This document shows positions 2,277 to 54,800 of a stretch of 64,000 nucleotides of DNA, one piece after another. The first letter of the stretch is position 1. Every line of letters starts with the position of its first letter. The translations under genes and the position numbers were made by a program. The DNA comes from Heloderma charlesbogerti (taxonomy: Eukaryota; Chordata; Lepidosauria; Squamata; Helodermatidae), in contig JANEZZ010001563.1 of assembly GCA_026122225.1 (NCBI GenBank), positions 1-64,000 on the forward strand, written 5' to 3'. The notes beneath the pieces were generated by a model, which was not told the origin of the DNA, made no database searches, and saw only the letters and a list, made by a program, of their open reading frames with translations.

Positions 2277-3180
2277 TAGGGATGGCAGAGAATTCTGCCA
2301 TGGATTTCAGTGAGGCCGAATGCACTGGCATTTGGCCCCCCAAAATCCGTGGTGGAATGGCCTGCCACCCCCCGCCACCCCGCGGATTCCCCCCGGGACG
2401 AAGCTTACCTGGGGCGGATGTTCCGGATGGCGGTGGCTCCGGCAGTGGCAGTGGCGGCGGCTCTTTCGACCAGCTGCTGCAGCCGCCATTTGCATCCTGG
2501 TCTTTGCTGTGATAGGCTATGTAAGTATTTACGTAGCCTATCACTGCTAATGCAGGGATGCCTTTTGCGTCCCTGCAGAGGCTGTGATAGGCTACCTAAG
2601 TATTTACATAGCCTATCATGATAAGCCAAAAAAAAACAAAAAACAGTGTACACAAATGGCTGCAGCTATGGCGGCCGCCATTTGCATTCCCTATTTTTAG
2701 CCATTTTAGCCTACGTAAATATTTACGTAGGCTATTATGGCAAAAAAAGGGGATGCAAATAGCTTAGTGGGTGCTATTTGCGTTCCCCTTTTTTTCCCGC
2801 CGTAATAGCCTACGTAAATATTTACATAGGCTAAAATGGTTAAAAATAGGGAATGCAAATGGCAGCCGCCATAGCCGTCGCTATTTGCATACGCTGTGGG
2901 GGGGCGTTGGGGCTTGTCGTGATAGGCTATGTAAATACTTACGTAGCCTATCACGGCAGCTCGCAGGACGCAAATGGCGGCCGCTACGGCGGCCGCCATT
3001 TGCGTCCGCAGCAGCCCATCCACAGCCGGAACTCCAGCTGTGGATGGCCCTGGCTGGTGGCTATGCGGAGCCGCCGCGGAGTGGAGCCAGCCAGGGAGGA
3101 TTCCGGGGGGAGGGACGGAGTGCCTCCCCCCCACCGCGAATCACATCTGCGAAAAGGTAAGTGACTTTCATACATCCCTA
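2277..3180. mobile_element. Palindromic hAT element, copy 1 (A end left, B end right)
   Basis: Starts TAGGGATGGC and ends ACATCCCTA. The core contains at least five palindromes of the GATAGGCTACGTAAAT / ATTTACGTAGCCTATC type plus GCAAATGGCGGC / GCCGCCATTTGC palindromes. An outward frame on the - strand starts at ATG 2489-2487 and runs 27 codons to CAG|GTAAGC (exon edge 2409). An outward + frame starts at ATG 2974 and runs 61 codons to AAG|GTAAGT (exon edge 3156). There is no matching 8-bp duplication, because 1.13 kb of the host BovB is missing here. hAT assignment is by homology to copies with duplications. Confidence 0.85.
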
Positions 3181-3884
3181 ATATTCATAAGGGATATGAT
3201 TTAGGTCATACCTGAATGGTTTAGTGGTTTTCCCTACGTTCTTCAATTTAAGATGAAATTTTGCAATAAGAAGCTCATGACCTGAGCCACAGTCAGCTCC
3301 AGGTCTTGTTTTGACTGACTGTATAGAGCTTCTCCATCTTTGGCTGCAAAGGACATAATCAATCTGATTTCGATATTGCCCATCTGGTGATGTCCATGTG
3401 TAGAGTCGCCTCCTGTGCTGTTGGAAAAGAGTGTTTGCTATGATCAGCGTGTTCTCTTGGCAAAACTCTATTAGCCTTTGTCCTGCTTCATGTTGTACAC
3501 CAAGGCCATGCTTGCCTATTATCCCGGTGATTTATTGACTTCCTCCTTCAGCATTCTAATCCCCTATGATGAAAAGGACATCTTTTTTTGGTGTTAGTTC
3601 TAGAAGGTGCTGTAGGTCTTCATAGAACCAATCAACCTCAGCTTCTTCGGCCTCAGTGGTTGGGGCATAGACTTGAATTACTGTGGTGTTGAATGGTTTG
3701 CCGTGGATTCATACTGAGATCATTCTATCGTTTTTGAGATTGTACCCCAGTACTGCTTTCCCCACCTTTTTATTGACTATGAGTGCTACCCCATTTCTTC
3801 TAAGGGATTCTTGCCCACAGTAGTAGATATCATGGTCACCTGAATTAAATTCACCCATGCCTGTCCATTTTAGTTCGCTGATTC

Positions 3885-4803
3885 TAGGGGTGGATGAAAG
3901 TCACTTACCTGTCCTCGAAGGACGTTCGCGGTGGGGGGGAGGCGCTTCGCTGCTCCCCCCGCGAAGTTCAGGCCGGGGGGGGGACGCTTCCCGCCTCGGC
4001 CCGGCCAAAATTCAGGCCGGGGAGGAGGCTTCCCACCTCGCCCGGCCGCGAATGCGAAAGTAAAAAAAAAAAAAAAACGCCCCCTGATAGGCTACGTGAC
4101 GATTCACGTAGCCTATCACGGCTAGATCTGCAAAGTCAGCCATGATAGGCTACGTCAATCATCACGTAGCATATCACGGGTGACTTCAAAAAAAAAAAAA
4201 AAGTGCGTACGCTAATGGTGGCCCCCATAGGGAGCCGCCATTTGCGTTCCTTATTTAGTCGCTGTAGTCTACGTAAATGTTTACGTAGACTACGGCGAAA
4301 ATAAGGGCAACGCAAGTAGCGTTGCCCTTATTTTCGCCGTAGTCTACGTAAATCTTTACGTAGACTACAGCCACCAAATAAGGAACGGGAATGGCGGATC
4401 CCTATGGGGGCCGCCATTATCCGTACGCACTTTTTTTTTCTTTTTTTTAAGTCACCCGTGATAGGCTACGTGACGATTGACGTAGCCTATCACGGCTGAC
4501 TTTGCAAATCTAGCCGTGATAGGCTACGTGAATCGTCACGTAGCCTATCAGGGGGCGTTTTTTTTTTTTCTTTCACTGCAATGGCGGCGGCGGCAGCCAG
4601 TCGAAAGACCGGCTGCCGCTCCCGCCTCGCTCGAACACCCGCCGAACCGCCGGCCGGACCAGCCACCGGGAGGGACATTCGGTGAAGGTAAGTCCCGTCC
4701 CGGGGGGGGTTCGGAGGATTTCTCCCCGAAACTTGTTCGGGGGGCCGAACACGTTGGCGCTTGGCCCCCCGAAGTTTCGGGGAGAAATTCTCCGCCAACC
4801 CTA
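3885..4803. mobile_element. Palindromic hAT element, copy 2 (B end left, A end right)
   Basis: Bounded by TAGGGGTGG and CAACCCTA, with a perfect 8-bp duplication GCTGATTC at 3877-3884 and 4804-4811; the intact BovB at about 61675 shows the unoccupied target. The core, about 4062-4571, is one large inverted repeat centred near 4316 and itself built from smaller palindromes. Splice-donor consensus faces outward at both ends: 3909 on - (CAG|GTAAGT) and 4687 on + (AAG|GTAAGT). The A-end ATG frame is closed by a TGA just before its donor in this copy. Confidence 0.93.
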
Positions 4804-5908: not shown

Positions 5909-8900
5909 GTAAGTAATTCTGTGTTGGTAGATCATAGAATCATAGAATCATAGAATCATAGAACAGTGGGGTTGGAAGGGGCCTACAAGGCCATCAAGTC
6001 CAACCCTCTGCTCAGTGCAGGAATCCAAGTCAGAGCATCCCTGATAGATGGCTGTCCAGTCTCATCTTAAATGCCTCCAGTGTGGGAGAGCCCACCACCT
6101 CCCCAGGTAATTGCTTGGCCTTCCTCTCTTTGGCAGCCTTTCAAGTACTTGAACAGCGCTATCCTATCTCCCCTCAGTCTTCTCTTCTCAAGGCCAAACA
6201 TGCCCAGTTCCTTCAGTCTCTCCTCATAGGGTTTTGTTTCCAGTCCCCTGATCATCTTTGTTGCCCTCCTCTGAACCCTCTCCAGTTTGTCTGCATCCTT
6301 CTTAAAGTGTGGTGCCCAGAACTGGACAGATGAGGCCTAACCAGTGCTGAGTAGAGGGGAACTAGTTATGTTATGTTACAACACCTGAGATATTATGTTA
6401 TGACACCTGAGCCTAATTTCAAAAGCCCCAGATGTTCCTATCTACAGACGTTCCTTTATGAACACAAAGAACCCAGCTAGTGCACAGCCTCAAAGCAGTC
6501 TGGTAGGATTTGTGTGAACATATTCTAGTACAAGTCAGGATTTCAAGCATAATTCTAATGGGTACTGGCTGAGATTCAGATGGTTCTTCCTTGGCTGCCC
6601 AGCCACAAAGGGCTATTCCTTTGCTTTCTCTCCTAAAGAGCTTCATTTTGAGATTGTAAATGTTGCTGAATGTGTTTTTAGCGACCAGGTCCAATGTGAA
6701 ACTGAACACATGGTTAGTTTTTAAAGGAGGGAATGACTACAGTTAGGCTACTAGCTCACCAGCTTTAGTTGCCACTGGAGGGCAGGCTAAGGCAATGTTG
6801 TTGTTGTTCAGTCGTTCAGTCGTGTCCGACTCTTCGTGACCCCATGGACCATAGCACGCCAGGCCTTCCTGTCCTCCGCTCTCTCCCGGAGCGTGCTCAA
6901 GTTCATATTCATTGTATCGGTGATGCTATCTAGCCATCTCATCCTCTGCCATCCCCTTCTCCTTTTGCCTTCAGTCTTTCCCAGCATCAGGATCTTTTCC
7001 AGGGAGTTTTCTCTTCACATTAGGTGGCCAAAATATTTGAGCTTCACCTTCAGGATCTGTCCTTCCAATGAGCACTCAGGGTTGATTTCCTTTAAGACTG
7101 ACTGATTTGACCTCCTTGCAGTCCAGGGGACTCGTAAGAGTCTTCTCCAGCACCACAGTTCGAAAGCATCAATTCTTCAGTGCTCAGCCTTAGGGGAGAT
7201 GGTGCACAGACAGAGGCAGCAATTATTGGTGTGAGGGGTGAATTTCCCTGTATGACACGGCTTCCACAGTCACTCTCAGTGTGAGTAAGAAAAAGACAGC
7301 TTCGCTCAGGGTGTCAAACCATAAGACCATAAGAAGAGCCCTGCTGGGTAAGACCAAGATCTTGCCTTTTTTACAATGGCTGCACACTGGGTTGACATCT
7401 TCACTGAGCTGTCCACCACATCCCCAAGATCTCTTTCCTGGTCGGTCACTGCTAGCTCAGATCCCTTCAAGCTATACTTGAAGTTAAGTTTTTTTGCCCC
7501 AACATGCATCACTTTACACTTGCTTTGTGTGGTGGTTGTCTTTGGTGGGAAATCTCTATTTGCCTTGCAACAAGATTCGTTTCCAGCCTCCAACAGACAC
7601 AAGCCATTATGTGGACATCAGATACTGGATCTGGATCTCATGTACGATGAGTACATTTCTAAGAGGAATATGAGTACAATGAGTATAGTTCAACTGTCCT
7701 CCTATCTCCTCCAACCAAACAAGCTTTTGAAACAATATAAAAGGAAGCTTCTGTTTACAGGACTATACCAAATACAGAAAGGCCTGGAAAGGCCTGGAAA
7801 GCTGAATAGTCAGGAAACTGATATGTTGTTTCGCTGAATGGAGAATGACCATGCCACATATGGTTCATTCCAGGAATATGTACATATCATACTGGCACAT
7901 CTTGTCTTTCCTGTTTGCCACCCAGGAGGTCAGACAGAATCCCAGGCTCTTACCCAACATCACCCTGGGTTACAACATCTATGACAACTACTGCGATCCA
8001 AGAATGACTTATGATGCCATGGCCGACCTTCTCTCAACTGGTCATAAGAACATTCCAAACTACAGCTGTGGAAGAAGAAATCGTCTGCTGGCAATTATTG
8101 AAGGGGCTGAAACTGACATTTCCAAAGATATTTCAACCATGCTAAGTATCTACAAAATCCCACAGGTATGAATGGGATAAGATGGGGAGAAAGCTGAGTA
8201 TAATCTAGGGCTGTGCACTGCTTTGGCCCATGGCCCAAACCCTGAGTCGAAGCGAGCTGCTTCGGGTCACTTTGAGCCCCTTCCAAGGAGGAGCGGAGGG
8301 GGCACGACGTGACCCAGAGCAGGTTGGGAGCTCTCGGAAGCACTCGGTGTGCTTCGGAGCTTTACCCCCCCCCAGCCCAGCCCCCCGGTGTCTTCTGAGC
8401 CGCCTTCTCCGCCACTGTTGCTGCCGCTGCCTTCTCCTCACCGCCACCACCTTCGCTGCCACTGCCACCACCCGCTGCTGCTGCCCTCCGCCACACCGCC
8501 ATCTCCTGAGGCCTGGACGTGCGGCGACTCATCTTCTTGCAGGGAGTTGCCATTTTTAAAATGGCGAGTCCCTGCAAGAAGAGTCGCTGCATGTCCAGGC
8601 CTCAGGAGCTGGTGGCAGTGGCGGGCGGCAGTGGAGAAGGTGGCGGCAGCAGTGAGGATAACCTGGTGGTGGAGAAGGCGACAGCTGTGGCGGAGGAGGA
8701 GGAGGCCCAGGTAAAGAGCTGGGGGTTGCGCAGGGGTGTCAGGGGGGGACCCAAAGCGGGGTTCACCATAGATTCATAGAATCATAGGGTTGGAAGGGGC
8801 CTACAAGACCTTTGAGTCCAAACCCCTGCTCAGTGCAGGAAGCCTGATTCCCAGGTGATTTCCCATCCTAGTACTAACCAGGGCTGACCCTGCTTAGCTT

Positions 8901-11900
8901 CCGAGATCAGACGAGATGATCGAGACAGGGCAGTCACCTCCAAATCCCGCTTCAGGTTCAGGGCCGAGTTGGGTCGGTGGGGCCCCAAATCTGCCCAAGC
9001 TGAATCGGGCCCACCTCAGAAGGCGCGAAGCGGCTTCCGAGTCGGATCGGAGGGTCCCTGCACAGCCCTAGTATAATACTACTGTGGAATCTCTCCAGAG
9101 AAGTTGGTGAGGTGAAATAGGCATTAAAGTGAGGCAGGAGGCAGACAGTCTTGCAGAGACTGGAACAGTTTTATTTGTGTGTTTCCTGATGAACTAGCCC
9201 TTTGTTGTGATCATTCCAAAGCAATTTAGCTTCCCTGGGAGTAAATGCATAGGTATTTTTGTCCTGCTAGCTCCTCCAATTAAACAAGCTTGCCATTCTT
9301 TTGAAACAATACAGAAGGAGCTTTCCCTTTATAGATGCTGATAGTGTGATAAGTACACTAAGTACACACTATGAACAGCAAACACAGACGATCCATCCCT
9401 CCCCCCGGAATCCTCCTTGGCCGGCTCCACTCTGTAGTGATTCCATGGAGCCGCCGGCCAGCTCTGAAGCACCAGTGATATGGCATGGCAGCAGTATCGC
9501 TGGCACTCCGGAGCCGGAGGATCCGGCCGAAGGGGATTCTGTGGGGAGGCGGAGGTAAGTGCTCTGTTCTGCCACGGACTCTGGGAGGAGGGGCGGATTC
9601 TTTAGAATCCGGCCTCATTGGGGTCCGTGGTGGAATTCTCCACCATCCCTACTGATTACCTCAGGAGGTGGTGGGCTCTCCCACACTGGAGGCATTCAAG
9701 ACGAGGCTGGACAGCCATCTGTCAGGGATGCTCTGACTTGGATTCCTGCACTGAGCAGGGGGTTGGACTCGATGGTCTTGTAGGCCCCTTCCAGCCCTAC
9801 TAGTCTATGATTCTATGACCACCTCTCCCCATATGAACCTACCCAGACCCTGAGGTTGGGTAGCTTACTTATGGCCTGATCATTGCAGGGTGTTTTTGTA
9901 GAGTTCATTCTAGGTGGTAGATGGTGGGAAATATTTGGCTGTTTGATCAGTATATTGTGGATGAACACTTTTAGTATTGTATTGCTATTAGACTAGGTTT
10001 TATTATGCCTACTTATATTTATATTATTGTGTTATATGGATTATGGATTTGATATGAACCAACCCACACACTACATTTAGCATCTAAGGCCCTCCTCCAA
10101 GTGCCTTCTCCAAGAGATGCTCAGATATGGCAACAAGGGAGAGTGCCTTCTTGGTGGTGACCCCCCAATTGCCCACCTCACACCACCACTGTTATCTTTT
10201 CAGCACTCCTTTAAAATTGCCCTCTTCTCTCAGGATTTTGAAAAGTGATGCATAAATTTAATACATGAAATGAAGGAATTAGCTCTCCCTTCCTCCCACC
10301 CCTTGCAGAGCAAAGAATCAATGGCATCAGCGTCTAGAAACCCGAAGCAGAAAATAATAAGCCCTCCATAGCGCCTCTCATTCTCAGGGTAGAAAAGATT
10401 CAAGCCCTAAATCTAGGCCTACAGACTTCTTATATTTGCCAGGAGACACTCTCTTAAACCAGGCTTGTCCTTTTTTTAATTTTTAATATTAAAATATCAA
10501 GAGAACATGAGAGCATAAGAAGAGCCCTGCTGGATCAGACCAATGGTCCATCCAGTCCAGCGTTCTGTTCACACAGTGGCCAGCCAGCTGTCAACCAGGA
10601 ACCCACAAGCAGGGCATGAGTGCAACAGCACCCCTCCCACCCATGTTCCCCATGGGCTCACTGCCCCTGATTTTGGAGGTAATACATAGCCATCAGGACT
10701 AGTAGCCATTGATAGCCTTTTCCTCCAGGAATTTGTCTAACCTCCTTTTAAAGCCATCCAAATGGGTGGCCATCACTACATCCTGCGGTAGTGAGTTCCG
10801 TAGTTTATCTCTGCGTTGTGTGAGGAAGTCCTTCCTTTTATCTGTCCTGAATCTCCCACCAATCAGCTTCATGAAATGACCCCACTGGGTTCTAGCATTT
10901 TGAGAGAGGGAGAAAAATGTCTTCCTATCCACATTCTCCACACCATGCAACATACTCAGAGCAAAGCTTACACATGCATAGATTCAAACACACGATACAT
11001 CCAAAATCACATTAAAGTAAAGCCTAAGCCAAGTAAAAATCAATTTTGATGGCTTACTGGTCTTCTCCTACAGGCTATTAAAAAGGGGTAGCTACTCCAT
11101 AGGAGAGTTCCCATTTTCTGTGTTCTGAATTTCCTTTTGTTTCCTTTTATTACTCTTAAAGAGGTCTAGATTATTTCCCATTCGTTTATTTATGTCCCAT
11201 TAAGACACATTCCTAAGGATACATTTTTATTCTGAAATCAACTACGTGCTAAAATCCAAAGCTCTTAGTAAGATTAATGATTACAAGAACATTCTTATAA
11301 TAACATGTCTGAATCCCATGACATCTTACAGGTATGTTTGTCATGAAAGAATTCTTTCTACTACTATATGCTGTCCATGTGTTTGTTATCTCCCAAAACA
11401 AATTTATTCGGTTTATAATCTGAAAGATTCTTCCTCGATTCCTTATCTGATCACATTCCTAATTTTATGGTACTTTTATAGCCCCGTGGGTGTTCAAGTC
11501 AACACCCTTTTATAGCCCCGTGGGTGTTCAAGTCAACACCCTCATGTCAACATCCTATCTGCTTTTATCAGATAAGACCACTGATGGGTGCTTGCCTATT
11601 ACTAATACCCTTGAATCTTCTGGCTACATCTGGAAAGGCTGAGTGAAAAGACATGTTTTTTTCATTCCTGCTTCAATCTGTATAACACTGGAACTTGGAA
11701 CTGCATTATTGGGCAGTATCAAATTGGCACTTACTATGCACAGCCAGTCCCACCAGCCCTGATCTACAAGCGGGCCCTACCGCTTTCACAATGCAATATC
11801 ATGCTTCGAGGGAAAAGCCCTAAAATGAGTGGAAACACTCATTTCTGGAATCGGCAGGGCTCCAATGACCTCCCCGCCTTCCAGAAATGAGCATTGCACA

Positions 11901-14900
11901 AGCAGAAAGGGCTGCTTGCAGATCAGAGCAATGGGGCTTTCTGCATGTGGACCAGAACCAGCAGGGGCTGGCCACATGTGGAAGGACCCAACTAGATGGT
12001 GCCCAAAATATTTTAATCCAGAATTTGCTTGAAGGCATCTGATTACTGAATTACCTGATTACATAGTTGGGGCAAGTTAAGGCACCTTTTTATTTTCTCC
12101 CTATAAGTATAAGGTCGCCATTCAAGTGGAGAAAGGTGAAGTGATACTTTTGGGATTTTGCTGGGATGAGGACAATATTCTCTTCCATTTTTTGCTAGGT
12201 CAGTTATGGTTTTGTTTCTAATGCTCTTAATGATAAAACTGAGTTCCCTTTCATCTACCGGATGGTCCCCAAGGAAGAAGCTCAGTACCTGGGAATTGTC
12301 CAGCTGCTCCTGCATTTTGGATGGACCTGGATTGGTCTCATTGCTCCAGAAACTGACAGTGGAGAGAGGTTCATGAAGACCTTGATGCCTGTGCTCATTA
12401 GGAGTTCTATTTGTGCTGCCTTCTCAGAGCATATTCCAGAACTGAAAACACAAAATTGGGAATTATCTCATGAAATACTTCGCATGTGGAACAAAGTCAA
12501 TGTATCTGTTTATTACGCAGAGAATTATTCCCTCTACAGTACAGTATACATTTTGCAAACAATGGCTGAAAGGTATGTAAAACCCATTGTGGGGAAAATC
12601 TGGATCACAACAGCTTTGTGGGATCTCACCTTGAACTTGAGCTATGATCTTCTGTCTTCCCACCACGTCCATGGTTTTTTTTCCTTCTTAATCCATATAA
12701 ATAAAAGGGCTAAATACGACAATTATAAGACATTTTTCAATCCGATGCAGCTGTTTGGGCTGAAAGCATTTAATTGTTCATATCTAGACCATGTGGTTTC
12801 AGTGAAAGGGAGGGAGAGATGCAAAGAGAAGGAGAACTTGAAGGCCTTGCCTGAGGAGGTGGTTGAAAAAACTCTGTCTCTGGATAACTACAGTATCTAC
12901 AACCTCGTCCAGGCTGTGGCACGTGCCTTAAACGCTGTGCATTCATCCAGACCCAAGCAAAGGATGATGAAGGGTGGAGACAAGTCGGGACTGCAAACAG
13001 TACAGCCATGGCAGGTATTACTTTGCCCTCACAGCTCCCTCTGCTAAACATGACAGCCAGTTGTTCAACCATGGAAGTTATTCACTTGGTTCTAGCTGCT
13101 TAGAACAGTTCAGATGCAATAGTGTAGTTAAACATTGTGCATTCCTTATGAAAATCAGATTTGTGAAGTTCCTGGTAAAGGGCCAACTTTTTGTGACTAC
13201 TGCAATAGTCTCAAGGATTCATCACACGGGGGCAGAATTCCACATCAGCACCGGGGCATTCTCCATCCAGTTGCATCATGGGATGAGATCAGCCTCCTTT
13301 ACACAGTTGTTTGTACCTCATTATATTCTGTTCCTTACCTTTTCACAGGGTGGTTACTTTTCCACGAAAAGCCATTGCATGCACTGGGGGCATCATGAAA
13401 TTTCCTCCTTGGTTCCTGCCCCTTTCCCTCCCCTCGCAGATTACTGGTGGTTTGATTGTGATTGACACACAATGCGGGTGGACAGCAAACTCCACCAAAC
13501 TGCCTGAACCCCGTCCCCACAGGCACCAGCTTCCCAGAGAATTGCTGGAATGCAGACATGCTGGCCATTCCATGTTGTGGAGTAAGCAGCCGAAGTTGAT
13601 GCATTGCATTGCATTTAGTCACAGCACGGTGGCAAGCTGGCAGGTCAGTATACCGACATGCCCACCACCCCAATGTCTCTGCCGTTGTCATCATGTCCAC
13701 CACCACCCCAACAAACCAAAACAACTAGGGATGGCAGAGAATTCCGCTACTGATCACGGTGAGGCCGAATGCCAGTGCATTCGGCCCCCCGAAATCTGTG
13801 GCAGAACGGCCTGCCCCCCCGCCCCCCCCCACAGATCCCCCCTGGGATGAGATTTACCTGGGGCGGAACTTCCGGGTGGCGGCAGCTGCGGCGGCTGGTC
13901 TTCTGACCAGCTGCAGCCGCCGCCATTTGCAGTCTTGTCTTTTTCTTTTTTTCTTTTTTTTTTTACAAGACATGATAGGCTACGTAAAGACTTACGTAGC
14001 CTATCACATCTAGTTTTTAAAAAAATGCGTATGCAAATGGAGGCGGCTATGGCCGCTGCCATTTGCGTTCCTTATTTTTGGCCATCTTAGTCTACGTAAA
14101 TATTTACGTAGACTAAGACGGCCAAAAATAAGGAACGCAAATGGCGGTGGCCGTAGCTGCCGCCATTTGCGTATGCATGGTTGTTGTTGTTGTTTTAAGC
14201 CAGACGTGATAGGCTACGTAAGTCTTTACATAGCCTATCATGGCTGACTACAGGGACGCAAATGGCCTCCTTTCCGCATCCTCCATCGCTCATCGCTCCC
14301 TGCGTCTGCGTCGAGCGTCTAGCAAGCCCCGTTCCCGCACTTTCTCACTGCTAGGATCACTATCTATCTCAGGAATGCCGGCAGGAGGAATCTCTGCCAG
14401 CTGCTGTGCCTGTGAGGGATGAGCTGGCTCCTCTCCCATGGATTGCTGATCCTCCTCAGAATCAGAACTGCTCTGGGGTTCTATCATCTCACTTTCCACG
14501 CTGACATCAAGATCCAAAAAGGTGCCCATACTCAAAGAATCATGACAGAACTATTGTTAATGATTGTGAACCGCCTACAGAGTTTCAGCTATTGGGTGGT
14601 GTAGAAATGTAAGAAACAAACTAACTAACTAACTAACTAATAACATACTGCTACAAATCTCCCACCTAAAGCATCCCACCTAATTTTGCCAACTAGTAGG
14701 GCAAAGCTATGCTTGCGGATTTCTCCTTAGGGTGCAAAATGAAGCTTATGCATTCCATGACTCTTTTCTTCCTTAGAATGGTGAAGCAGAAAGATGGGAC
14801 TTCAGATCCTGTCAAGGTTCCCCTTATGAACTGGACCCCCTGAACAACGCCCTAAGGATTTCTTGCCTCCTTAAGATTCCCACCTTCTTTCTTTTACCTT

Positions 14901-17900
14901 CCCCTTTCCAGTAATGTGGGGCTTGGGCTGTAGGCAAGGGGTGATTGACACTGAGGCTAGGGATGTATGAAAGTCACTTACCTTTAACGAAACTTGATTC
15001 GCAGTGGGGGGGAGGTGCTCCATCCCTCCCCCTGAAATTCTGGCTGGGGGGGAGGCGCTCCGTCCCTCCATCCCTGAATCCTGGCCAGCCGGGCCCGCAA
15101 ATGGCGGCGGCCGTAGCCGCCGCCATTTGCATCCCTGCAGTCAGCCGTGATAGGCTACATAAATGTTTACGTAGCCTATCACGGCTGAGTAAAAAAAAAA
15201 ACCTGCATACACAAATACGCTATTTAAAAAAAAAGTGCTACGCTATTTGCGTTCCCCTTATTTTCGCCATAGTCTACGTAAATGTTTACGTAGACTAGAC
15301 GTGCCAAAATAAGGAATGCAAATGCGTCCCTGCAGTCTATTTGCGTCCCTGCAGTCAGCCGTGATAGGCTACATAAATGTTTATGTAGCCTATCACGGCT
15401 GAGTAAAAAAAAAAACGTGCGTATGCAAATACGCTATTTAAAAAAAAACGTGCTACGCTATTTGCGTTCCCCTTATTTTCGCCATAGTCTACGTAAATGT
15501 TTACGTAGACTAGACGTGCCAAAATAAGGAATGCAAATGGCGGCGCCCATGGGCGCCGCCATTTGCATATGCGCGGTTTGTTTTTGTTTTTTTTACTCAG
15601 ACGTGATAGGCTACATACACATTTACATAGCCTATCACGGTATTTTTTAAAAATCTAGCCGTGATAGGCTACGTAAATCTTTACGTAGCCTATCACGTTT
15701 TTTTGTTTTTGGGGGTTTTTTACTGGAAATGGCGGCGGCCGGTCAGAAGACTGGCAGCCGCCACCAGAGCTGCCGCCGCCAGGAGGATTCGCCCAAGGTA
15801 AGTCCCATCCCGGAGGGGGCGGGGGGGGCAGACCATTTCGCCACCAATTTCGGGGGCCTGAATGCGCTGGCATTCGGCCTCCCCGAGATTCATGGCAAAA
15901 TTCTCTGACATCCCTACTTTAGACACAAGGTCAACCACAACAGTTTACTGGCAAATTAAAGGAAGCCAATCACAACTAAAAGTATTTACACAATACAGCT
16001 GAGTGATACAAAAGGCATTAAGAGAAAATAAAAATTGTCAAATGCAAATTCCTTTACCCTAGCTGTTCTTAGACTTCTCTGGGCTGCTTCTTCCTGCTCC
16101 CTCTTCAGGCTCTGCTCTTCCTGGCTCTGCTTGTCCTGGCTCTCTTGCTCTCTTTATATACCCTCCTCCCTCAAAACTGAAAGTACTGTTTCAAACCTGA
16201 AGAAATGAAACTTAACTGGGGAAATGAAAATGAAACATAACCAAGGAAATGAAATTACTCCTCACAGGGATGCCACCCCCCTTCAGACCAAAAAAAAAAA
16301 ACCCCTCCAGGCCTCTAGGCCTGACCTTTTTCCTTGCCTCTGTAGGCCTCAAACCTTCATAGAACCATAGTGACAATACACACACACACACACACACACA
16401 CAGAGAGAGAGAGATGGTATCTGTCTGTGAGAAATGTACACAAGTCCTGACTCTTTGGAGATTAGCACTGCAATGGACAGGACAGAGCTACCCAACTTGG
16501 TTGCTTGTATTCTCAATGCTGGTGTCTTCTCTGCCATTCTAGCTTCACCCTTTCCTAAGAAACCCCGACTTTTACAATTCTTCCATGGGTGGCATGTATC
16601 TGGATGAGAAGGGGGAACTGGCTGCTAAATTTGACAGTATGAACTGGGTGGCATTTCCAAATAAGACCTTTGGTGCAGTGAAGTTTGGAAGTATAGACAG
16701 ACAAGGATCCTCAGGCCTAAAATTCACCATTGACCAAGATGCCATTATATGGTCTGAGATGTTTAACCAGGTAGGTGAAAATCATTCATTTCTTTTTATT
16801 CCATTTTACTTTTGTTAAGTTCTAATAATCTGTTGGGGATGAGAGAGAGAAGGGGAGAGAGGGAGAGAGTATTCCTACCGAATGAGTTTACAGGCTAATA
16901 AGAAAAGTAATATGAATAAAGACAAGGGATAGCATGGTAGAATACATGTGCCTAGAGAAGCATGGTAGGATGCATGTATATAGATTATAGTGGCATCAAG
17001 GCCATATCAGGGCATCCACACCCAAATGGAGACTTTGCAGATACCGCTCTCTTTCTCTGGCCAAGGCAGAAGGAAGCCAGGCTCCTAATATTTATATCAG
17101 GATTCACCAATCCAGAGGCATGCAAATACCTGCCAGCCACAATGACTAAATGTTGCACACTCATATCCCTTTTGGCATGGATTTTCTGAGGCCTATGCAT
17201 GCACCATCCGTGGTAGATCAGGAGATCCAGTTCCAGATCAAGTGGTTCCTGCTTAAAGACCAGGAGCCACTGAGAAATGGTCAGGATGAGCTATTGGAAC
17301 AAGCATCTTAGATCCCACTTGGAGGGACCTCTAGCTGCAAAGAGACTTGGGAGTGGTTTCTCTTACGAGTGGTGCTAGAATTTTCCACTTATGTTCTTGC
17401 TAATGATGTGCCTTCTGTGCCTTCTCTGTCTCCACCTGCGTCAGGCTAGGAATGGTAGCTATTCACCATTCTCCTATCACTTCCTTTTCTTGTTCACATA
17501 ATGTGGGCTGGCTGAAGTGTCGCAATAGCCACAGGACAGGAATGATGCCAGAAGCTGTTTCCATTGGTGGCATTGAAGGGGAGGTTGTTATGTTATTTTC
17601 TTACTTCTGAGCAGGGGTGTATCAGCAAACTGAATGACCATGCCACCAAAACTTAAGAGACACCGTGGAAGCGGCTCTCAGTAATTCAGGATGGCACAAT
17701 CCTTTGACAGAATCAAATGACCAAACAGTAAAAGGAGAGAGTGAGTTCTCTTCGTTCACTTTAGCTCGATTATTGTTTACAAAAAAAATGTAATTATTGT
17801 TTACAATAATGGTGCCCATGGCGCCATTTTTTTTTTACTCAGCCATGATAGGCTACGTAAACATCTACGCTATTTGCGTTCCCCTTATTTTCACTGCAGT

Positions 17901-26845: not shown

Positions 26846-27337
26846 TAGGGATGTACGAAAGCCACTTACCATTTTGCGGATCTGCTTAATGGGGGGGGGA
26901 GACGCTCTGTCCCTCCTCCTGGAATCCTGCCTGGCCGGCTCTGCTCTGTGGGGATTCCATGGAGCCGCTGGCCGGCTCTGCTCACAGCCAGACATCCGGC
27001 TGCTGGGCAGCAGGGACGCAAATGGTGGCAGCCATAGCCACCGCCCTTTGCGTCCCTGTACTTAACCGTGATAGGCTATGTAAATATTTACGTAGCCTAT
27101 TACGGCAAAGTAAAAAAAAAAAACGCGTATGCAAATGGTGGTGGCTACGGCGGCCGCCATTTACGTTCACTATTTTTCGCCGTTCTAGCCTACGTAAATA
27201 TTTAAGTAGGCTAGAATGGCTAAAAATAGCGAACACAAATGGCAGCCGCCTTAGCCGCCGGCATTTGCATACGCTGTGCCCAGCCAGAAGACCAGCCACC
27301 GCCGCCACTGCACCCACACCCCCCACCACACCCGCAC
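26846..27337. mobile_element. Palindromic hAT element, copy 10 (B end left, right end lost)
   Basis: Starts TAGGGATGTACGAAAGCCAC. The B-end donor on - is ATG|GTAAGT. Contains GATAGGCTATGTAAAT and TAGCCTACGTAAATATTTAA palindromes. The A-end region is cut at 27337, where the next element begins directly. Confidence 0.85.
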
Positions 27338-39197: not shown

Positions 39198-39488
39198 GCC
39201 AGCCAACTCCAAAGCACCAGTGATACGGCCGCCATGCGATATCGCTGGCTGAAGGGGACTTGACTGACTGCGGACGCAAATGGCATCCAGGACGCCATTT
39301 GCATCTGCAGTCAGTCCCCTTCAACCAGCAATACAGCATGGCGGCCGTATCGCTGGAAATCTGGAGCTGGAGGATCCAGCCAAAGAGGACTCAGTGGGGA
39401 AGTGGAGGTAAGTGTTCCATTCTGGGGGGCCGGAGTCTTTAGAATCCAGCCTCATTGGAGTCCATGGTGGAATTCTCCACCATCCCTA
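39197..39488. mobile_element. Palindromic-hAT relative with a different core (copy 13)
   Basis: Right terminus TGGAATTCTCCACCATCCCTA as in copy 4. The core is an inverted repeat around CAAATGGCATCC / GGACGCCATTTG with flanking arms GACTGACTGC and GCAGTCAGTC. The + frame from ATG 39338 (MAAVSLEIWSWRIQPKRTQW...) is open 23 codons to GGAG|GTAAGT (39407). The left terminus is lost at the CR1 junction. Confidence 0.75.
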
Positions 39489-40331: not shown

Positions 40332-41242
40332 TCAGATGCCATCTTTAGTTTTTGTCACTAGATGCTCTTTTGTATTCAGATCAGGCCTCAATATAATAAT
40401 GTAGCTCTTGGGAATGAAGATGCAACCCAGCAGCCCAGCACTGGAAGCCAAGATAGAAAAGACCTGCACGGCTACCATGTATTTCCCCTTCGTGCTCAGG
40501 TAGGTGGGCACAAAGGACACCCAAACACTGCAGAAGACCAGCATGCTGAAGGTGATCAGCTTGGCTTCATTGAAGGCCCCAGGTAGCTTCCTGGCAAAGA
40601 AAGCCACTGTAAAGCAGATGGTAGCCAGGCAGCCCATGTAGCCAAGGGCACCATAAAACATGGCAACAGACCCTTCATTACATTGCAGGATGATCTGTCC
40701 AGGCTGGGAGTGCATGTCAGAATCTGGGAATGGTGGAGAAATTCCCAGCCAGATGGTGCAGATGACAACTTGGACACCAGAACAAGAAATTACCATGGAG
40801 TTTGCAAGACTCTTCCCCAGCCATCTTCTCACCCTGTTCCCAGGCTTTGTGGCCAGGAAGGCCAGCACCACAGTGATCGTTTTTGCCAACACAGAAGAAA
40901 CAGCAACTGAGAAGATGACACTGAAGGCCATTTGTCGGAGAAGGCAGGTCACCTTCCTCGGCTGTCCAATGAACAGTAAGGAGGACAAGAAGGAAAGCAG
41001 GAGGGAGATGAGGAGAAGATAGGAGAGGTCCCGGTTGTTGGCTTTGACAATTGGTGTTTCTAGGAATTTAATGAAGATTCCTAACACGCAGCCTGTGATT
41101 AAGGCCAAGAACAGGGCAAAGGACATTAGGATGATCCCCAAAGGTTCCTCATAGGCGAGGAACGTTATATCCTTGAGGACACATCGATCTTGGTCCTGGT
41201 TGGGATGCTGATCTTCTGGGCACTTGTTACAATGATCTGCAT
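40332..41242 (-). CDS. V2R-B exon 6: seven-helix domain and C-terminus
   Basis: 911 bp, phase 1 in, stop at 40332-40334. Starts [19 protein letters not shown], then seven hydrophobic helices, [12 protein letters not shown], and [19 protein letters not shown] (PKSY where V2R-A has PKCY), ending KTKDGI. Confidence 0.97.
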
Positions 41243-44200
41243 CTAAGAAGAAAAATGACTTCAAAAAAACTAATGTCAATACTGCGTTCGAAGTAGTTGG
41301 TGTTCTATCCCATTTCAGAGAACACATTTTTAGGGTGATAGCCAGAAAAACCAATGGTGGTGGATGGAGCATTCATAGAGTGACAACTTTTGGGAAAGGA
41401 TGCGTTCTTATTAATGTGAAGTGTTAGATGGTTTGAGGGCAGCAGTTTCAAAATTCGCTTCTGGAATGATTCATTTAACATCATTTGCCCTGGCAGAGAA
41501 GTGCATCAGAGTCAGATTTTAGATATATTCAAGAGCAAGTAGGCCTCCCTTCACTCAGGGCATGGATCATGCCTACTGGATCTTCCCATTCTCCCCTGTG
41601 CACTATGGGCCCGGCCATATTTCATGGTACACATGATTCAACATGGGTCAGCCCAATCGTATGCAATGCAGAGGGTGTGCATGTTTTCTAAAGAGGCCCC
41701 TGGCAGTTGTGGATTCCCATTTATGTGATGCTCTTCCAAGAAAGCCTTGCCTAGCAGCTGTGCTGATATCTTTTCAGTAGCAGGAGGACAGGTGTTCCCC
41801 CCCACCAGCATTTTAACTGATGAAATTAGTTATCACCTGGAAATTTACACTGCAAATTATTTTCTTGTTATTAACTTGTTCATTTTATTTAATATTTCTT
41901 CCCATTAGCTACCCTCAGAATATAGATGAAGTAGTAAGATGCATGTAGGATGGCATTGCTGAAAGCATCTGCTGCCTCTCCATGCCCCGCCTGACACATA
42001 GAAGGTACATTTGTAGCAACTTTGTGGAATTATTAATTATGGGTGTAACACATCTAAAAACAAGGAAGGATCCAGATTTTAAAAATAATAATCTTAAAAT
42101 CCTTCACTAAATATCTCTAAGGGAATCTTTGCCCTCTTCCCCAAGGAAGAAAATCCCTTCCTCTGGAGTCACTTACCTTCCTGAGTGGAGATTGTCCCTT
42201 CTGCACAGGGACCACAGACATAGCAGCAAATTGGCTCACCTTCTTTAACCACCTTGATGTACCCACGATCACAGGTATTGGAACACTTTGAATGTGGCAC
42301 GGTCTGATCATAAAGAAAAGGAGAATCAAGCAAAAGGTGTCAGGAGTAATTTCTCTACAGAAGGGAGTCATGCACATGCATGGGTGTGTAAACTTTGGGT
42401 GGCTCACAATTGTAGACCAAGGGCAAAGAAGGATCAGACGTCTCTGCTAGCACAGAAAGGTATCATTAAGAAGTGTGGGTTCTTGGAGAACTTATTAACT
42501 CTCGGGGAGGACATGAATATGTGAAGGCTTCTCTAAATGAAAGCAAAAATCCCACACCCTACCGGGCTTTCTTCTTACGGAGTCTTTCCGGGATTACAAT
42601 CCGCACAATACACATGCCTCCCCCACCCCATTTTTGGCTGTTTCCTTTGTGGGGAAGTTCCATATGTTCTATTTTCACAGCCAGGAGATGGTGCTGCAAC
42701 ACTGCAGTGATATTGCGCTATCCAGGAAATACATCAGCTCTTGTTGGTGGTGCATATTTATTATGGCATTTTCAGTAAGTGAAATTATGGGGGAATTTAG
42801 CTAAAAAATGGTAAGGGAGGCACTGGAGGCACCGAAAGGACCCACAAACTTCAGTGAGTAACCAATCCTAAGAGCACTATATAGGCTGGGTGTGGAGAAG
42901 CCCTGAGTGATATACTGTCAGGGTTCCCCTTTTGACCTGGAGCCCCTGAGCAACTCCTTAAGGGTCTCTTGCTTCCTTATGAGTCCTACCTTCCTTCTTT
43001 TCAACTTCCCCTAGCTGTACATAGCTGTAACATGACGTTTAGGCTGTAGACATGGGGTGATTGACAGTCTAGACACAGGGTTTAACCACAACAGTTTACT
43101 GGTAAATTTGAAGCTGGCAAATCACAACTAAAGGTATTTAGACAATAGACCTGAGTGATACAAAAGGCCTTAAAAGAAAAAAAATAGTTGCAAAATACAA
43201 GTTCCTTTACCCTAGCTGCCCTTAGGCTTTTCTTGGCTGCTTCTTCCTGCTCACTCTTCAAGTTCTACTCTCACTTCAGGCTCTGGCTGTCTCTCCCTGG
43301 TCTTTCTGACTTTTATTGCTCTCTCTCTCGCGCGCGCTCTCTCTCTCTCTCTCTATATATATATACACCCCTCCTTCAACACCAAAAGTACTGCTTCAAC
43401 CCTGAAGAGATGACACTTAAGTGGAGAAATGAAACTGACACTTAATGAAAAAAATGAAACTACTGCTTTCAGGGTTACTCCCTCCCAACAGAAAACTCCA
43501 GGCCTCTAAGCCTGCCTCTTTTTTTCCTTTGCCTCTGTCGGCCTCAAACCTTCACACACCACTTTCAAAAGGAAGATGGATTGTAAAAGCCATAGAGGAG
43601 CAGTCCCCACTCCCAAGAGGAAGCCATTCTAGAAGAAAAGTAGGACAATGCCTTCCCCCTTCCAGCCACCAGCCAAACCGCAGATGTCAAACGTCTCCAC
43701 ACAGGACATCATCAGATGTTCCATTCCTAGGTTGGGCAGAGCATGGTCACTGGGGTGAAAGTGGGTTTCCGTAAGGTACACTGGGATGGGACCACTTCGG
43801 GCTTGGAAGGTAAGCACAAGGACTTGAACACAAACAGATGGAACACAGGTGTTGTGGGCTCTGCTCCTGCCTTTCCTGGTAAGGCATTGGTCTGAAATTA
43901 ACACCTGGACATTCCCACCTATCTTCAAAGGAGGTCCCACCCTAAGATAATTACAGCAATCCATCCTGGAGGTTAGTGGGTAAATCAGAGATGCAATAAA
44001 TAAATAAACATAACAGATGAATATATTCCAGATCATGAATCACCAGTTCCAGGCTTCTCTTAGGTAACTTGTTCTCCTTGTCCCTCTTGAAGATGGAAGA
44101 GAAATGATTCTTACCAGGGGATGACTTGTTAACCCATCACTCTGCAGTAGTGTGGTAGGGAAATAGCCATTTTTATGGCATTTCCACTGGAGAAGGCAAT

Positions 44201-48800: not shown

Positions 48801-51800
48801 TCTGAGGAACTGAGGCCAATAGTAGTGACAAAAGATGAAGTTCTCAACCTTATTGAAAAATTGAAAGCAAAGAAATCACTGAGTCCAGATGGTATCCATC
48901 GTAGAGTTCTCAAAGAACTCAAATATGAAATTGCTGATCTTCTAATTGCTGATCAGCCTCTATGAGAGAGGACTGGAAGATGGCCAATGTAACACCAATT
49001 TTCAAAAAAGGGATCCAGGGGGGATCCAGGAAATTACAGGCCAGTTGGCTTAATGTTCTTATGTACAGGAAACGAGGTTGGGTTTCTCACCTCTGCTTAA
49101 ACAACTCCATTGATTCCTGGTTCTTTCTGAGCCCAATTCAAAGTGCTGGTGTGAAGTGGGCAAAGCAGAAGCAGAAGGCCCGCAAGCATGAAGAGGAAGA
49201 CTCCCAAAGCAGACTTCAGGAAGAGCAGAGGCTTGGATGACAGTCAGCAGAGGTCTGAAGTCAGAGCAAGCAGCTGGACCAGACTGAAGACTTCAGGGGA
49301 AGTCTGGTAAACTGCATATAAGGTCCCAGGTGGTAGTCCAACCTTGCCAGAAGAAGGACAAGGTATCAAGCTTTCTTTGACAGGGCTGTGTGTTAAGTGG
49401 GGTGGAGCATGATAGGGGAATCGGCTCAGGTGGAACTTAATAGGGGAATTGACTTTTTCTTGGTCTTTCAGGCCCAAATCCAGATGGGGAGGATGGAGTG
49501 GCTGGGACCAGCAAAGATGACCCACTGGTACTATATTGCCATATGAAGCATATGAATGAATACAGAATGCAGCCCTATTGTATTGCTCGGGCATCCTGTG
49601 AATTGATCCATGCCAGTTGGTTGTTTACATCAGCAGCTGGCAGGTTGGGTTAAACACTGAGAAAGAGCCCTCTTCTTCCAGTAAGACTAGGTGTTTCATA
49701 AGGCAACTAAAATGATCAAGGGCCTGGAGCAACTCCCCTGCAGAGGAAGATTACAACAGCTGAGATTGTTTAGCCTGGAAAATGGTGAGTAAGGGGAGGC
49801 ATGGTAAAGGTGCACAAAATTATGCCTGGTGTAGAGAATGTGGATAGGGAGACATTTTTCTCCCTCTCCCATAATGCTAGAACCTGGAGTCATCCTGTGA
49901 AGCTGATGGTTGGGAGATTCAGGACAGATAAAAGGCAAGGCATCTTCACAAAGCGCAGAGTTAAACTACAAAATTTACTTCCACAAGATGTAGTGATGGC
50001 CACCAATTTGGATAGCTTTAAAACAGGGTTAGACAAATTCCTGGAGGAGAAGTCTATCAACGGCTACTAGCCCTGAGCTGCTACATGCTCCCTCCAGTGC
50101 CAGAGGCAGTATGCCTGTGTACACCAGTTGCTGGGGAATATGGACAGGAGGGTGCTGTTGCACTCATACCCTGCTTGTGGGTTTCCTGTGAGCAGCTGGT
50201 TGACCACTGTGTGAATGAATGCTGGACTAGATAGACTCTTGTTCTGATCCAGCATGGCTCTTCTTATGTCCTTAAAACAATACAGGACTAGGACAATGTG
50301 GGGCATCTTTGCAGCCCAAGGGAAAGTTTGGGTGCATAGAGGGTAAGTTTTAAGCAAGCTGAATTTGTGCTGGGCCACGTCAGTTAAGGCAAACTCCTCA
50401 GTTAAAGCATACGCTTTAGTTAAGGCATACTCCTTAGCTTCCACTTTCCTACCTTTTTGGAGCCTGAGCCAACAGGAAATAGCCTCGAACCTCATCTTAA
50501 ATGAGAAGGTTTGGATCATTGAATTTTCCTGGTTTTTGAAAAGGAAAGGTATAATTACACTGGTGGCTGGCAATCCTACCTTCTCCCCAATGTCTTTGGA
50601 TATGCTTTCTTGCAAGCGTGCCTGTGTGATGATTAGGATTATAAATACTTAACAAATGTTAATCATGATTTCATCTCAAGACTCAGGAGTCTAAAATCTC
50701 AGCAGTGAGGGACTTCCACAGAAAGAGGACATGGACCTTTCCAGACAGGCACCCTCTGCATGTAGAAAGCCATGAGAATGACGACAGAGGAGGTGGAGTG
50801 AATGGCCTTATTCCCACTTCCCTTCCTGTTGTGTAGAGCTCTCTGGATAGGGCTAGATTCATACAACCATCTTAACAAGAGTTCAAAGCCTATGAATGCA
50901 CACTCAGTGTAATGTGCCAATATACCCCTCCAGTAAAACACAATCTTTGCATGTTCTTTTCCCACCACATAGGAAAGGAGAGTAAGGATTGGGGTCCATT
51001 TTCTGCATTTCCTTCCCACGCTGATGTCCCAAACCATGTATTAACATGTGGTCACACCTTGTGAGAACACATTCCATAACTTAAAGGAATACTCATGACA
51101 CATAGAAGCCTTCTGTGACAGAACTCAAATAGAATCTCCCCTGCCTAAGAGAGCTCCAGGAGGGAGGGAGGGAGGGAGGGAGGGAGGGAGAGAGAGAGAG
51201 AGAGGGAGAGAGATCATACTCAAGGAGTGAAGTGGAGGGAAAGGGTCACTGCTGACAAATAGAAGTTGGACCAGTGATAGAGGCTATGACCAGATGAGCT
51301 ATGTCCTTCAAGGCCCCAAAGACAGACCAGGACATGGAATTTCAGAAGTGGGTTTCCCTCTGGAATGTGCACAATTTCCCCTCATTGCTACATCTGAAAC
51401 TTTCTCAGAGCCTGAATCCAAGACAAGAAGTCTGGCACGGTTCAAGTTTTCATAGATGTCCGTTGAGCTACCTCTGAGGGAGAGAAGGCATACCTGCCAT
51501 GGCTGGACCCTTTGAGATTCCAGCCAGCCACCGGCCACTAATGATTTCTGCTTGGATCTAGATGAATAAGCAGCATTTAAGGCATGTGCCAGAGCCCAGA
51601 CAGTGTTGTAAATGATGTAGTTATCCAGAGACAGGCTTCGGTCATGTATCTCCTGGGGTGATGGATTCTCCAGTTCCTCTCTTTCTCTGCATCTTATCCA
51701 GCCTTTCACAGACAACTGCTGCTTTGAATCAAAGCAATGAAATGCTTTCTCCACAAACTGCATCATAGAATGGAATACCGCTACAAAATCATCATAGTTT

Positions 51801-54800
51801 GCCTTTTTCTTTGGCTGGAGAAAGAAGGAAAAGATTCCATGGATGCCTTGGAAAGATAACTGGTTATACATCAACTCCAAGGTGAAGTCCCACAGGGCTG
51901 TTGTGACCCAGACTTTCCCTTCCATGCGCTTCATGAAGGGTTCAACATACAGTTTTACAAATAACATTCCATCTATGAAGGAACGAGTCTCCGCATAGTA
52001 AAGAAATGCATTGACTTGTTTCCAACTGAGAGTGGAAGAAATGTGTGTTGATCCTGGTGAAGCTATGCTTCGCGATGTTTCCGGGAGTATTTGTGAGAAG
52101 GCAACACAAATACTGTTCCTAATAAGCAAAGGGATCACAGCCCTCATGAACCTCTCTCCATTGTTAGTGTCTGGAACAACGAGACCGATCCACACCCATC
52201 CGAAATGCAGGAACAGTTTGGCAATCTCTGGATACTGGTTTTCTTCTGTGGGGACCATTCGGTAGAGCAGGGGGAATTGAGCTTTATCATCCAAATCATG
52301 GGAGACAAATGCGTAAGTGACCTAATAAGGAAGAGACCAGTGATTTGTTTCGTTTACAGGTGAAACACAATATCATTGACATCTAGCAAAATACGAGGCA
52401 TTAAGAGGCAGAGAGGGGAGACCCACATCTTGCTGGGCGGGACACTTTTACAGCAGCAGGAAAATATGTGCTCTTAAATTTTCAGTGTTTAATTCTGTAA
52501 AATCAACTAGCACTTTACAAGGGTTATCTTCAGTTTCTGCAGCTTTGTTGCAACTAGGGATGTCAGAGAAATCCGCTGTGGATTCAAATGAGGCCGGATT
52601 CTTTGGAATCCAGCCTCAGGAAACTGCAGCAGATTGGGAACACTTACCTCCGCTCTAGGAGGACTGGAGGCAGAACAGCACTCGGCTGCTTCTTGCCAGC
52701 CAGAGACATTCGCCTCCTCCCTGTGCCTGCCGATTGCCATGTCTTTTCATTAAAAAAAAAATGGCGATCAGCAGGATGTGCCCATAGACTTGGACGCAAA
52801 TAGAGTCATGAATCTTGTGTCTAAGTCTACGTAGACTTATACGCAAAATAGACGTATACGCAAAATAGAGCCATGAATCTTGTGTATAAGCCTATGGACA
52901 CATAGACTTAGACGCAAGATTCATGACTCTATTTGCTTCTAAGTCTATGGGCACACCCTGCTGATCGCCTTTTTTTGTTTAAAAAAAAAGACATGGCAAT
53001 CTGCAGGGACAGGAAGGAGGCAAACAGCTCTGGCTGGCAGGAGGGAAGGTAAGTGGCCCCTAAGCCGGTTCCCCCCCACTGGAATCCCCACCAGAACAGA
53101 CGGTGGGGAATCCGTACACCCCTAGTTGCAACTGTACAATATTTTTTGTCTCATGCTCCCACATGTTATACTTCAACTGAGTATAGGAAGAGTGGATTCC
53201 CCACACACACATCTAAATCAGACCTTTTCCGCAGTGGCCCCATAGCTCTGGAATTAGTTGCCATCAGGGGGCCTCCAGGCCCCATAATTGCAAGCTTTTA
53301 GGAAAGCCCAGAAAACCTACTGCTTTACTCTGGCCTTCCCCCTAATTATGTTTAATTATGGGCTGTAGCTGCAGTTGTATGTGGCAGATTTTCTTTTAAT
53401 GCTGGTGTTGGTGGTTTTTAGGATGCTTGCTGCTGTTGCTGTTTTTACTGTATCGGTTTTTATTATGGGAGTGTCAGGCTTCCCCTTTTGAACTGGACCT
53501 CCTGAGCAACTCCTTGAGGATCTCTTGTCTCCTTCAGAGCCCCACCTTCCTTCTTTTACCTTCTCCTTTCCAATGGTGTGGGTTTTAGGTAGAAGGCGTG
53601 GGGTGATTGACACTCTAGACGCAGGGTTTAACCAAAATAGTTTACTGGTAAATTTGAAGCTAGCAAATCACAACTAAAGGTACTTACACAATAGAGCCAA
53701 GTGATAAAAAAAGCCCTTAAAAGAAAATAAAAGTTGCAAAACCCAAGTTCCTTTACTCTTCCTGCTCTCTCTTCACGATCTGATCTCCCCAGTGCTGCTC
53801 TTACTGGCTCTCTCGCTCTCTTTATATCCTGCTCCTCCAAAACCAAAAGTCCCTCTCCTCGCAGAGACACCTGAACTACCTCATCCTTTGCTGGAAGGAG
53901 TGGGCAGCAGAGAGTTCCTATTCAGAAGATACCCAGAATTTCCTATATCAAGAAACAATTGGCTATATTACCTTGGCAATCTATTGGGCATTCTTTCCTA
54001 ACAAGGGGAAAGGCCAGGTTTGTCCAATGTTAAGCAGTCCTCCTGCTTTCCAACCCCCAAGTAGACTCAGTCTGCAAATGCCCTGCTGCTCTTCACCCTA
54101 CCTGTGGGATTTTGTACACGTTCATCATGGTTGAAATCTGGATGGAGTTTTCAGTGTCGGCCCCCTCAGGAACAGCCAACAGGTGACTCTGCCTTCCACA
54201 GTGATAGTTGGGAACGCTTGCTTGTCCAGGAGAAAGCAGGTCTACCAAGGCATCGGAAGTCATCCTGGCATCAAAATAGTTCTCATAGATGTTGTAGCCC
54301 AGGGTGATGTTGGGTAAGAGGCTGGGATTCTGGTTGATGTCCTGAACTGCAAACAAGAAGGACAGGAGGTTCCAGTGCTTCATCGTTCCTTTCCTGAAAA
54401 AATATATGCAATATCATTATCCTACCTTCAATGAAAGTAATACACAGTTCTTGCTTCTTTGACTCTATGGGCCTTTCCAAGACCTTTAACCAGGCTTACA
54501 CTGATCCAGAGCGAAAGCCAGGTGCACAACAACCAATCCGCACTCAGTGACTTGGTTCGCACAACATGACCACATGGACATGCAGGTGACATCCAGTATG
54601 AAGGGAAATTACATTAAAATTTGTCAAATTGTACTGTAGATCTGAGCATTCTGTGCTCTCTGTTGAGAGTCCCCACTCAGCCATGAAGCTCACGGGGTGA
54701 CTTTGGGCCAGTCACTGACTCTCAGCCTAACCTACCTCACAGGGTTGTTGTGAGGATAAGATGGAGAGGAGGGGGATCATGCAGGCTGCCTTGGGCTCCT

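Follow-up and report, generated by a model that had tools for sequence, protein, structure and literature searches.

Why should short transposable elements carry, near both of their ends, a consensus splice donor that reads out of the element? This question is raised by a 64,000-nucleotide (nt) stretch of the Heloderma charlesbogerti genome (contig JANEZZ010001563.1, positions 1 to 64,000; hereafter the window), which holds 13 elements of the hAT type (E1 to E13). The original prediction was that the donors may be selected, letting transcripts started inside an element splice into flanking host exons. We observed the anatomy of the elements, the orientation of their donors, the retention of AG|GTAAG across diverged ends and in a second family, and neutral decay of the donors in dead copies. 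Our preferred reading, to which we give a probability of about 0.44, is that the elements are bidirectional promoter-like units with outward non-coding exons whose donors would recruit U1. Every step past the anatomy is one that we infer.

Outward Donors in the Window

The limits of the 13 elements were set from the TAGGGATG...CATCCCTA tips and, where present, from 8-bp duplications; some of them are approximate. Read outward, they give 20 termini, namely seven B ends and 13 A-type ends. The window contains 18 exact AGGTAAGT octamers. Sixteen of them lie inside 10 of the 13 elements, and all 16 point outward; the other two lie outside (at 21085 and 42171). The density is 16 in 8.5 kb of element sequence versus 2 in 55.5 kb outside, a difference of about 50-fold (0.94 versus 0.018 per kb per strand).

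The octamer is exact at 16 of the 20 termini and worn at four: GTAAGC (2403-2410), GTAAAT (13852-13859), GTACAT (18243-18250), and TG|GTAAGT (26864-26871). All the donors listed in the original prediction were found, as the motif or a stated worn form, within a few bases of their coordinates. Two worn forms had been named correctly, GTAAAT (13858) and GTACAT (18244), but GTAAGC at 2403-2410 had been listed unmarked. It had also been claimed that the donors lie close to the tip at B ends and farther from it at A ends. Our measurements agree: in the window the donor lies 24 nt from the tip at seven of seven B ends and 76-133 nt from it at the 13 A-type ends, and with fetched genomic copies added the A-end range is 76 to 165 nt. 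Relatives with other cores keep the donors, as had been proposed (9394-9651, 39230-39488, 52555-53124, and 8206-9070, the last as the weaker GTAAAG).

The sequence agrees with MAG|GTRAGT, which is the 5' splice site consensus, and its variation is confined to positions at which donors are variable. In 32 complete elements, AGGT[AG]AG was counted 59 times outward and once inward; most of these elements had been chosen by anchoring to a B end that has a donor, which makes the A ends the fairer half of this count.

Family Membership and Genomic Abundance

Exact 8-bp target-site duplications were found in the window for the elements at 3885, 18550, 22605, 30284 and 52555. Among 23 fetched elements with a perfect duplication, 22 combine it with the family tips, and the 23rd (L126) has another terminus. 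The elements have short terminal inverted repeats (TIRs) of the form TAGGGATG, which we take to resemble the Ac-like TIR. Judged from these sequence features, they are non-autonomous hAT-type elements.

Genome counts were made in the window's own assembly (2.30 Gb). A B-end 26-mer with at most three mismatches was found at 45,412 + 45,564 places, about 91,000 in total, and its reversed control at 0. We fetched 20 unselected 10-kb stretches, together with eight 3-kb and forty 1.17-kb stretches that were anchored on exact B ends. Since the anchored copies were selected through their B donor, only their A ends, and not their B-end donors, count as evidence. The duplication survey covered 38 pairs, three of them unprinted (one-mismatch duplications, donorless at both ends) and one a repeat (L129 repeats L105). 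Perfect duplications flank 27 family elements, 22 fetched and 5 in the window; 25 of the 27 have an A-end donor, which is lost in L146 and L169. Outside this genome, 12 viral and 92 prokaryotic pattern matches were obtained, and these look like chance; GTAAGT occurs within the preceding 30 nt in 2 of the 104, both in the same bacterial sequence.

Retention of the Donor Across Diverged Ends

We counted k-mers, unanchored on the motif, in seven end groups, not all of which are unrelated (some can be aligned with one another). AGGTAAG was present in seven of seven groups, ahead of every other 7-mer; the runners-up were GGTAAGT (6/7) and CATCCCT (terminal), ATCCCTA and GTAAGTG (5/7 each). An information peak centred on the donor exceeded its threshold in 57 of 66 A ends (shuffles 16%) and 54 of 57 B ends (shuffles 2.7%). 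This peak is partly built in because the best donor score served to align the sites, and the unanchored k-mer count is the fair version.

Pooled A donors came from 58 of 67 candidate ends, the other nine being dropped because, at 70-140 nt, they lacked a site with two changes or fewer. On the exon side, position −3 is C in 32, A in 20 and G in 6, position −2 is A in all 58, and position −1 is G in 57. Downstream, +1 is G in 56, +2 is T in 58, +3 is A in 55 and G in 3, +4 is A in 54, G in 3 and C in 1, +5 is G in 55 and A in 3, and +6 is T in 52 and C in 6; the sequence is mixed from +7 on. Positions −2, −1, +1 and +2 are near-invariant, and the variation at +3 to +6 is mostly acceptable for splicing (GTGAGT, GTAGGT, GTAAGC), with GTAAAT and GTACAT as additional variants. 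At the B side, five divergent ends (L130, L132, L145, L159, L167) keep AG|GTAAG at 22-25 nt from the tip with differing linkers. On the inner side of AG|GTAAGT, a box of about 13 nt (e.g., 3142-3154 and 14984-14996) varies among many copies; it sits between CACCGCGAA and the donor, and the sequence on both sides of it, tip included, is constant.

A second hAT family is represented by the element at 8206-9070. Its tip, TAGGGCTG, is unlike that of the first family; its core is a palindrome with both arms reading outward, and its own donors are weak (GTAAAG). A diverged, better-preserved relative was found in the unselected sample (L131:7293-7934; duplication GTTTAGAC/GTTTTGAC). Both of its arms carry CAG|GTAAGG well beyond the TIR, the distances to the tips being about 177 and 164 nt. 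The second-family donor stretch with at most two mismatches gave 4,343 matches versus 256 for the reversed control. Among 100 places listed, eight pairs lie less than 1 kb apart; counted by eye, seven are outward (minus-then-plus), one is same-strand and none is inward.

The main rival to our reading is that the AGGTAAGT block is a subterminal binding site for the transposase or a host factor that resembles a splice donor. It would face outward at both ends through the symmetry of the TIR, the A ends having gained a palindrome between block and tip. This explanation accounts for the symmetrical orientation and for the fixed B distance, which is 24 nt at all seven B ends of the window and places the donor within a conserved terminal block. 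In addition, a TIR that was originally about 24 bp long is suggested by the L130 B end, with AAG|GTAAGTGTTCCGTCCATCCCTA, and by some A ends in which GTAAGTGTTCC or GTAAGTGCTCC precedes the palindrome. However, the A-end distance spans 76 to 165 nt, the variable positions follow splice-site tolerance, and a block identical to the U1 consensus would be an unlikely coincidence. The strongest point against a mere TIR-binding block is the outward donors of the TIR-distinct second family, which are 160-177 nt inside a different TIR. We consider the binding site an unlikely explanation.

Core Anatomy and the Putative Exon

The mean GC content of 32 elements is 0.53 and their mean CpG observed/expected ratio is 0.92, compared with 0.45 and 0.22 in the remaining window. 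By these values, the elements are CpG islands. The outer 250 nt of 64 ends contain two poly(A) hexamers. An ATGGC-type motif, presumably similar to YY1 sites, is located 51-121 nt upstream of the donor in outward orientation in 49 of 58 A ends, and in the reverse orientation in 9. The element cores (15111-15710 and similar) are chains of palindromes, such as GATAGGCTACGT...ACGTAGCCTATC and GCAAATGGCGGC...GCCGCCATTTGC.

A coding first exon was considered and rejected. Despite open-looking ATG-to-donor frames in the window, frame 0 is no more open than the others. Counted from the first ATGG to the donor, 34 (frame 0), 38 and 40 of 50 are open; counted from the nearest ATGG, the numbers are 36 (frame 0), 44 and 41 of 49. 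A 50-residue reading of the ATG-to-donor frame found no relatives. Since these frames are not preferentially open, any exon is probably non-coding.

According to our preferred reading, each half of the CpG-rich inverted-repeat core would read outward as a short exon-like segment, GC-rich and non-coding, with the donor at its end near the tip. Transcription would begin inside the core and proceed in both directions, and the U1 small nuclear ribonucleoprotein would bind the outward donor near the element end. Early cleavage and polyadenylation would thereby be suppressed, and RNA polymerase II would pass out through the tips. According to the cited part of PMC10732640, early poly(A) sites are suppressed when U1 occupies a 5' splice site. 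Where a downstream host acceptor is present, it would be spliced to the element RNA, and the element would act as an alternative first exon. Several candidate advantages may favour donor-bearing source copies. For example, tip transcription may expose the ends to the transposase, so that donor-intact source elements would be favoured because their ends stay transcribed and accessible; alternatively, their RNAs would be less harmful or less well silenced. Escape from HUSH silencing was set aside, because introns lacking splice-site motifs escape too (PMC10732640, in the same part) and the donors would not be needed.

A wider claim can be put forward tentatively from the sequence: two or more hAT families of a single vertebrate genome would have kept a two-way CpG-island promoter with, on each side, a non-coding first exon and a consensus donor close to the tip, the donors having been selected for the spread of the transposon. 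If this is true, the roughly 10^5 places that match one end would mean that the genome is seeded with portable first exons, spliceable into host genes in either orientation. If they are functional, the elements would be a test case for whether selection makes DNA transposons link their transcription to the splicing of host genes, and many element-started germline transcripts are predicted. Transposons donate promoters and splice sites by accident. In the present elements the donor is a fixed, paired and outward-facing part, and it persists in tens of thousands of copies even as other parts of the element change. Among the matches listed in our full-text searches, whose scope leaves out most subscription journals, no title or abstract opening describes such elements.

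Decay in Dead Copies and Other Contrary Evidence

Several observations weigh against selected donors. It had been suggested that the idea would be refuted by donor bases decaying as fast as the surrounding sequence together with an absence of junction reads, and the first half of this holds in dead copies, where the donor bases decay about as fast as their neighbours. In one A subfamily, defined by an exact 15-mer, the +1 G is gone in 242 of 7,426 copies (3.3%). The B donor octamer is intact in 4,356 of 5,979 copies that have the exact terminal 18-mer, a loss of about 3.9% per site; the B terminal 9-mer, which contains one subfamily-variable site, is intact in 4,356 of 6,947 copies that have the exact donor-side 17-mer, a loss of about 5.1% per site. 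Among 100 listed copies drawn with the +1 G, the minor-base rates were 4% at +2, 7% at +4, 2% at +5 and 2% at +6, and those of the flank were 4% at +7, 5% at +11, 6% at +12, 5% at +13 and 4% at +16. Position +3 reached 15% (mostly GTGAGT), and positions +8, +9, +10, +14 and +15 reached 12-31%, which look like subfamily differences. Of 100 copies listed with +1 not G, nearly all have substitutions or small changes, and about one (C818:219448) is a possible junction or truncation. In old copies, the donor is not under purifying selection.

The B donors also fall within the conserved terminal 24 nt. In 64 B ends, the ATGGC-type motif is outward in 29 and reverse in 37, with no outward bias, and the nearest such motif is outward in 5 and reverse in 37. 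The CpG richness may merely reflect young copies. Donors are absent from L126:8738-9045, an element of 308 bp that has TAGGG-type tips and an 8-bp duplication. In an A3-like element of the unselected sample (L116:8077-8602), the left end reads GGAG|GTAAGT but the right end only GTAATC.

Neutral decay in dead copies means that selection, if any, acted on source copies, and the thing that needs explanation is the retention of the donor between source elements. The idea that the donors are selected therefore stands in part. It is favoured by their retention across diverged end types, the splice-tolerant variation, the second family and the rarity of a broken-donor 25-mer, but not by the dead copies.

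A broken-donor subfamily was looked for with one candidate and rejected. The candidate, GGGAGT, occurs in 3 of 100 listed copies, and its exact 25-mer has just those three copies genome-wide.

Selection would not be needed if the GC-rich inverted repeats of the founders contained the motif by chance and passed it on to every family. The neutral decay of dead copies agrees with this explanation, and the arms are inverted duplicates, so that both ends have one origin within a family. However, the motif persists across end types whose adjacent sequence differs and recurs in the TIR-distinct family, and the single broken-donor variant tested has three copies. We regard such inheritance as quite unlikely to be the whole cause.

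Splicing Layout and the Search for a Transposase Partner

It is also conceivable that the element is a promoterless cassette exon, lying in an intron in either orientation and partly spliced in between its own acceptor and an outward donor. Maize Ac/Ds elements, which likewise belong to hAT and make 8-bp duplications, donate splice donors to transcripts, and Ds1 supplies acceptors too, according to the cited part of PMC5432752. In our elements, outward T tracts of at least 8 nt occur at 33 of 64 ends (A tracts: 8). At 22 of these 33 ends an AG lies no more than 13 nt beyond the tract, which makes an acceptor ahead of the exon conceivable, and with it a cassette exon. A crude acceptor pattern was found 36 times in outward halves versus 21 times in inward halves. 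However, the T tract is present at half of the ends only, and the benefit to the element would be hard to see. The Ds-type splice-out layout, with a donor on the entry side and an acceptor on the exit side, was not found in the 32 elements: 59 of the 60 strong donors face out, at the exit side. Unlike the maize elements, a consensus donor here faces out near each end of short CpG-rich elements. We think the cassette exon highly unlikely.

A profile search with PF05699 (Dimer_Tnp_hAT) matched 150 of 150 scored candidates, out of 871 candidates. We read 20 sampled transposase 3' flanks (951 nt each, one 440) and both flanks of one locus. No autonomous partner was found: AGGT[AG]AG was present on the sense strand in 0 of the 20 flanks, and neither strand of the two flanks of the single locus has such a donor. 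The idea that the donors are intron 1 remnants of an ancestral transposase gene, whose deletion derivatives kept the first coding exon, fits the ATG found 50-120 nt upstream at many A ends with an often open frame to the donor, but it is very improbable, since no conserved open frame runs into the donor (frame 0 is not favoured), one L131 arm stops early (by eye), the donor is on both arms, and these transposase flanks lack it.

A TACATCCCTA string like the B tip was seen, donorless, in 10 of the 20 flanks (L173-L178, L180, L184, L186, L192); 9 of the 10 run into the same CTACACAC, so they are perhaps internal. An open reading frame (ORF) with a Myb/SANT-like domain (PF13837) is located on the opposite strand at L194:1554-2000 (-), downstream of an 879-amino-acid hAT transposase frame (C235), and the two perhaps form a two-gene element.

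Comparison with Known Systems

Maize Mu1 has an outward-reading promoter. Its end likewise starts transcription into the flank, as our elements would, and it belongs to a different superfamily; we know of no paired consensus donors for Mu1. The Chompy elements of crocodilians are abundant repeats resembling miniature inverted-repeat transposable elements (MITEs), and ours are likewise abundant MITE-like repeats of a reptile; this likeness is one of description, not sequence. The repeat mix here, with the class C receptor exons and LINE ORFs, suggests a squamate. In the U1-PAS axis of host promoters, U1 is recruited by a 5' splice site that lies close to the start, and early use of poly(A) sites (PAS) is suppressed. 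The cited part of PMC10732640 describes it for host genes and promoter directionality, whereas here it would work in both directions of a mobile element.

Individual Elements and Neighbouring Features

E1 (2277-3180) has its A end on the left and its B end on the right, with donors at 2403-2410 (-, AGGTAAGC) and 3155-3162 (+). It has no target-site duplication, and compared with a 94-95% identical copy at 59610-61276, about 1.1 kb of the host long interspersed nuclear element (LINE) is absent at its site. Perhaps this deficit came from recombination between two nearby insertions. E2 (3885-4803) is flanked by the 8-bp duplication GCTGATTC and has donors at 3903-3910 (-) and 4686-4693 (+). The second-family element (8206-9070) has the duplication GTATAATC/GTATAATA and a CR1-like insertion in its right arm; its outward donors are CAG|GTAAAG at 8708-8716 (+) and a worn GG|GTAAAG at about 8360-8366 (-).

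E5 (14958-15916), in which no target-site duplication was seen, has donors at 14976-14983 (-) and 15796-15803 (+). The donors of E7 (18550-19374; duplication CTTCTCGC) are at 18568-18575 (-) and 19240-19247 (+), those of E8 (22605-23460; GAGGGGAA) at 22623-22630 (-) and 23329-23336 (+), and those of E11 (30284-31190; CTTAAATC) at 30400-30407 (-) and 31165-31172 (+). E13 (52555-53124; GTTGCAAC), whose arms are inverted repeats, has donors at 52642-52649 (-) and 53047-53054 (+).

The other six elements are partial. An A-type right end with an approximate left limit is found in E3 (9394-9651; donor 9553-9560, +), E6 (17793-18364; worn GTACAT donor, +) and E12 (39230-39488; donor 39406-39413, +). 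E4 (13726-14262; worn GTAAAT donor, -) and E10 (27338-27811; donor 27464-27471, -) have an A-type left end and an approximate right limit. E9 (26846-27337) has a B-type left end with the TG|GTAAGT donor on the minus strand.

Class C receptor exons (7tm_3, ANF_receptor), which we take to belong to vomeronasal type 2 receptors, were found at 24230-25183 and 51308-52294, and parts of these exons recur as inverted repeats at 12262-13047 and 40332-41372. The minus strand carries LINE ORFs at 59843-61561, 37940-39304 and 28742-29626, in which endonuclease and/or reverse transcriptase domains were identified.

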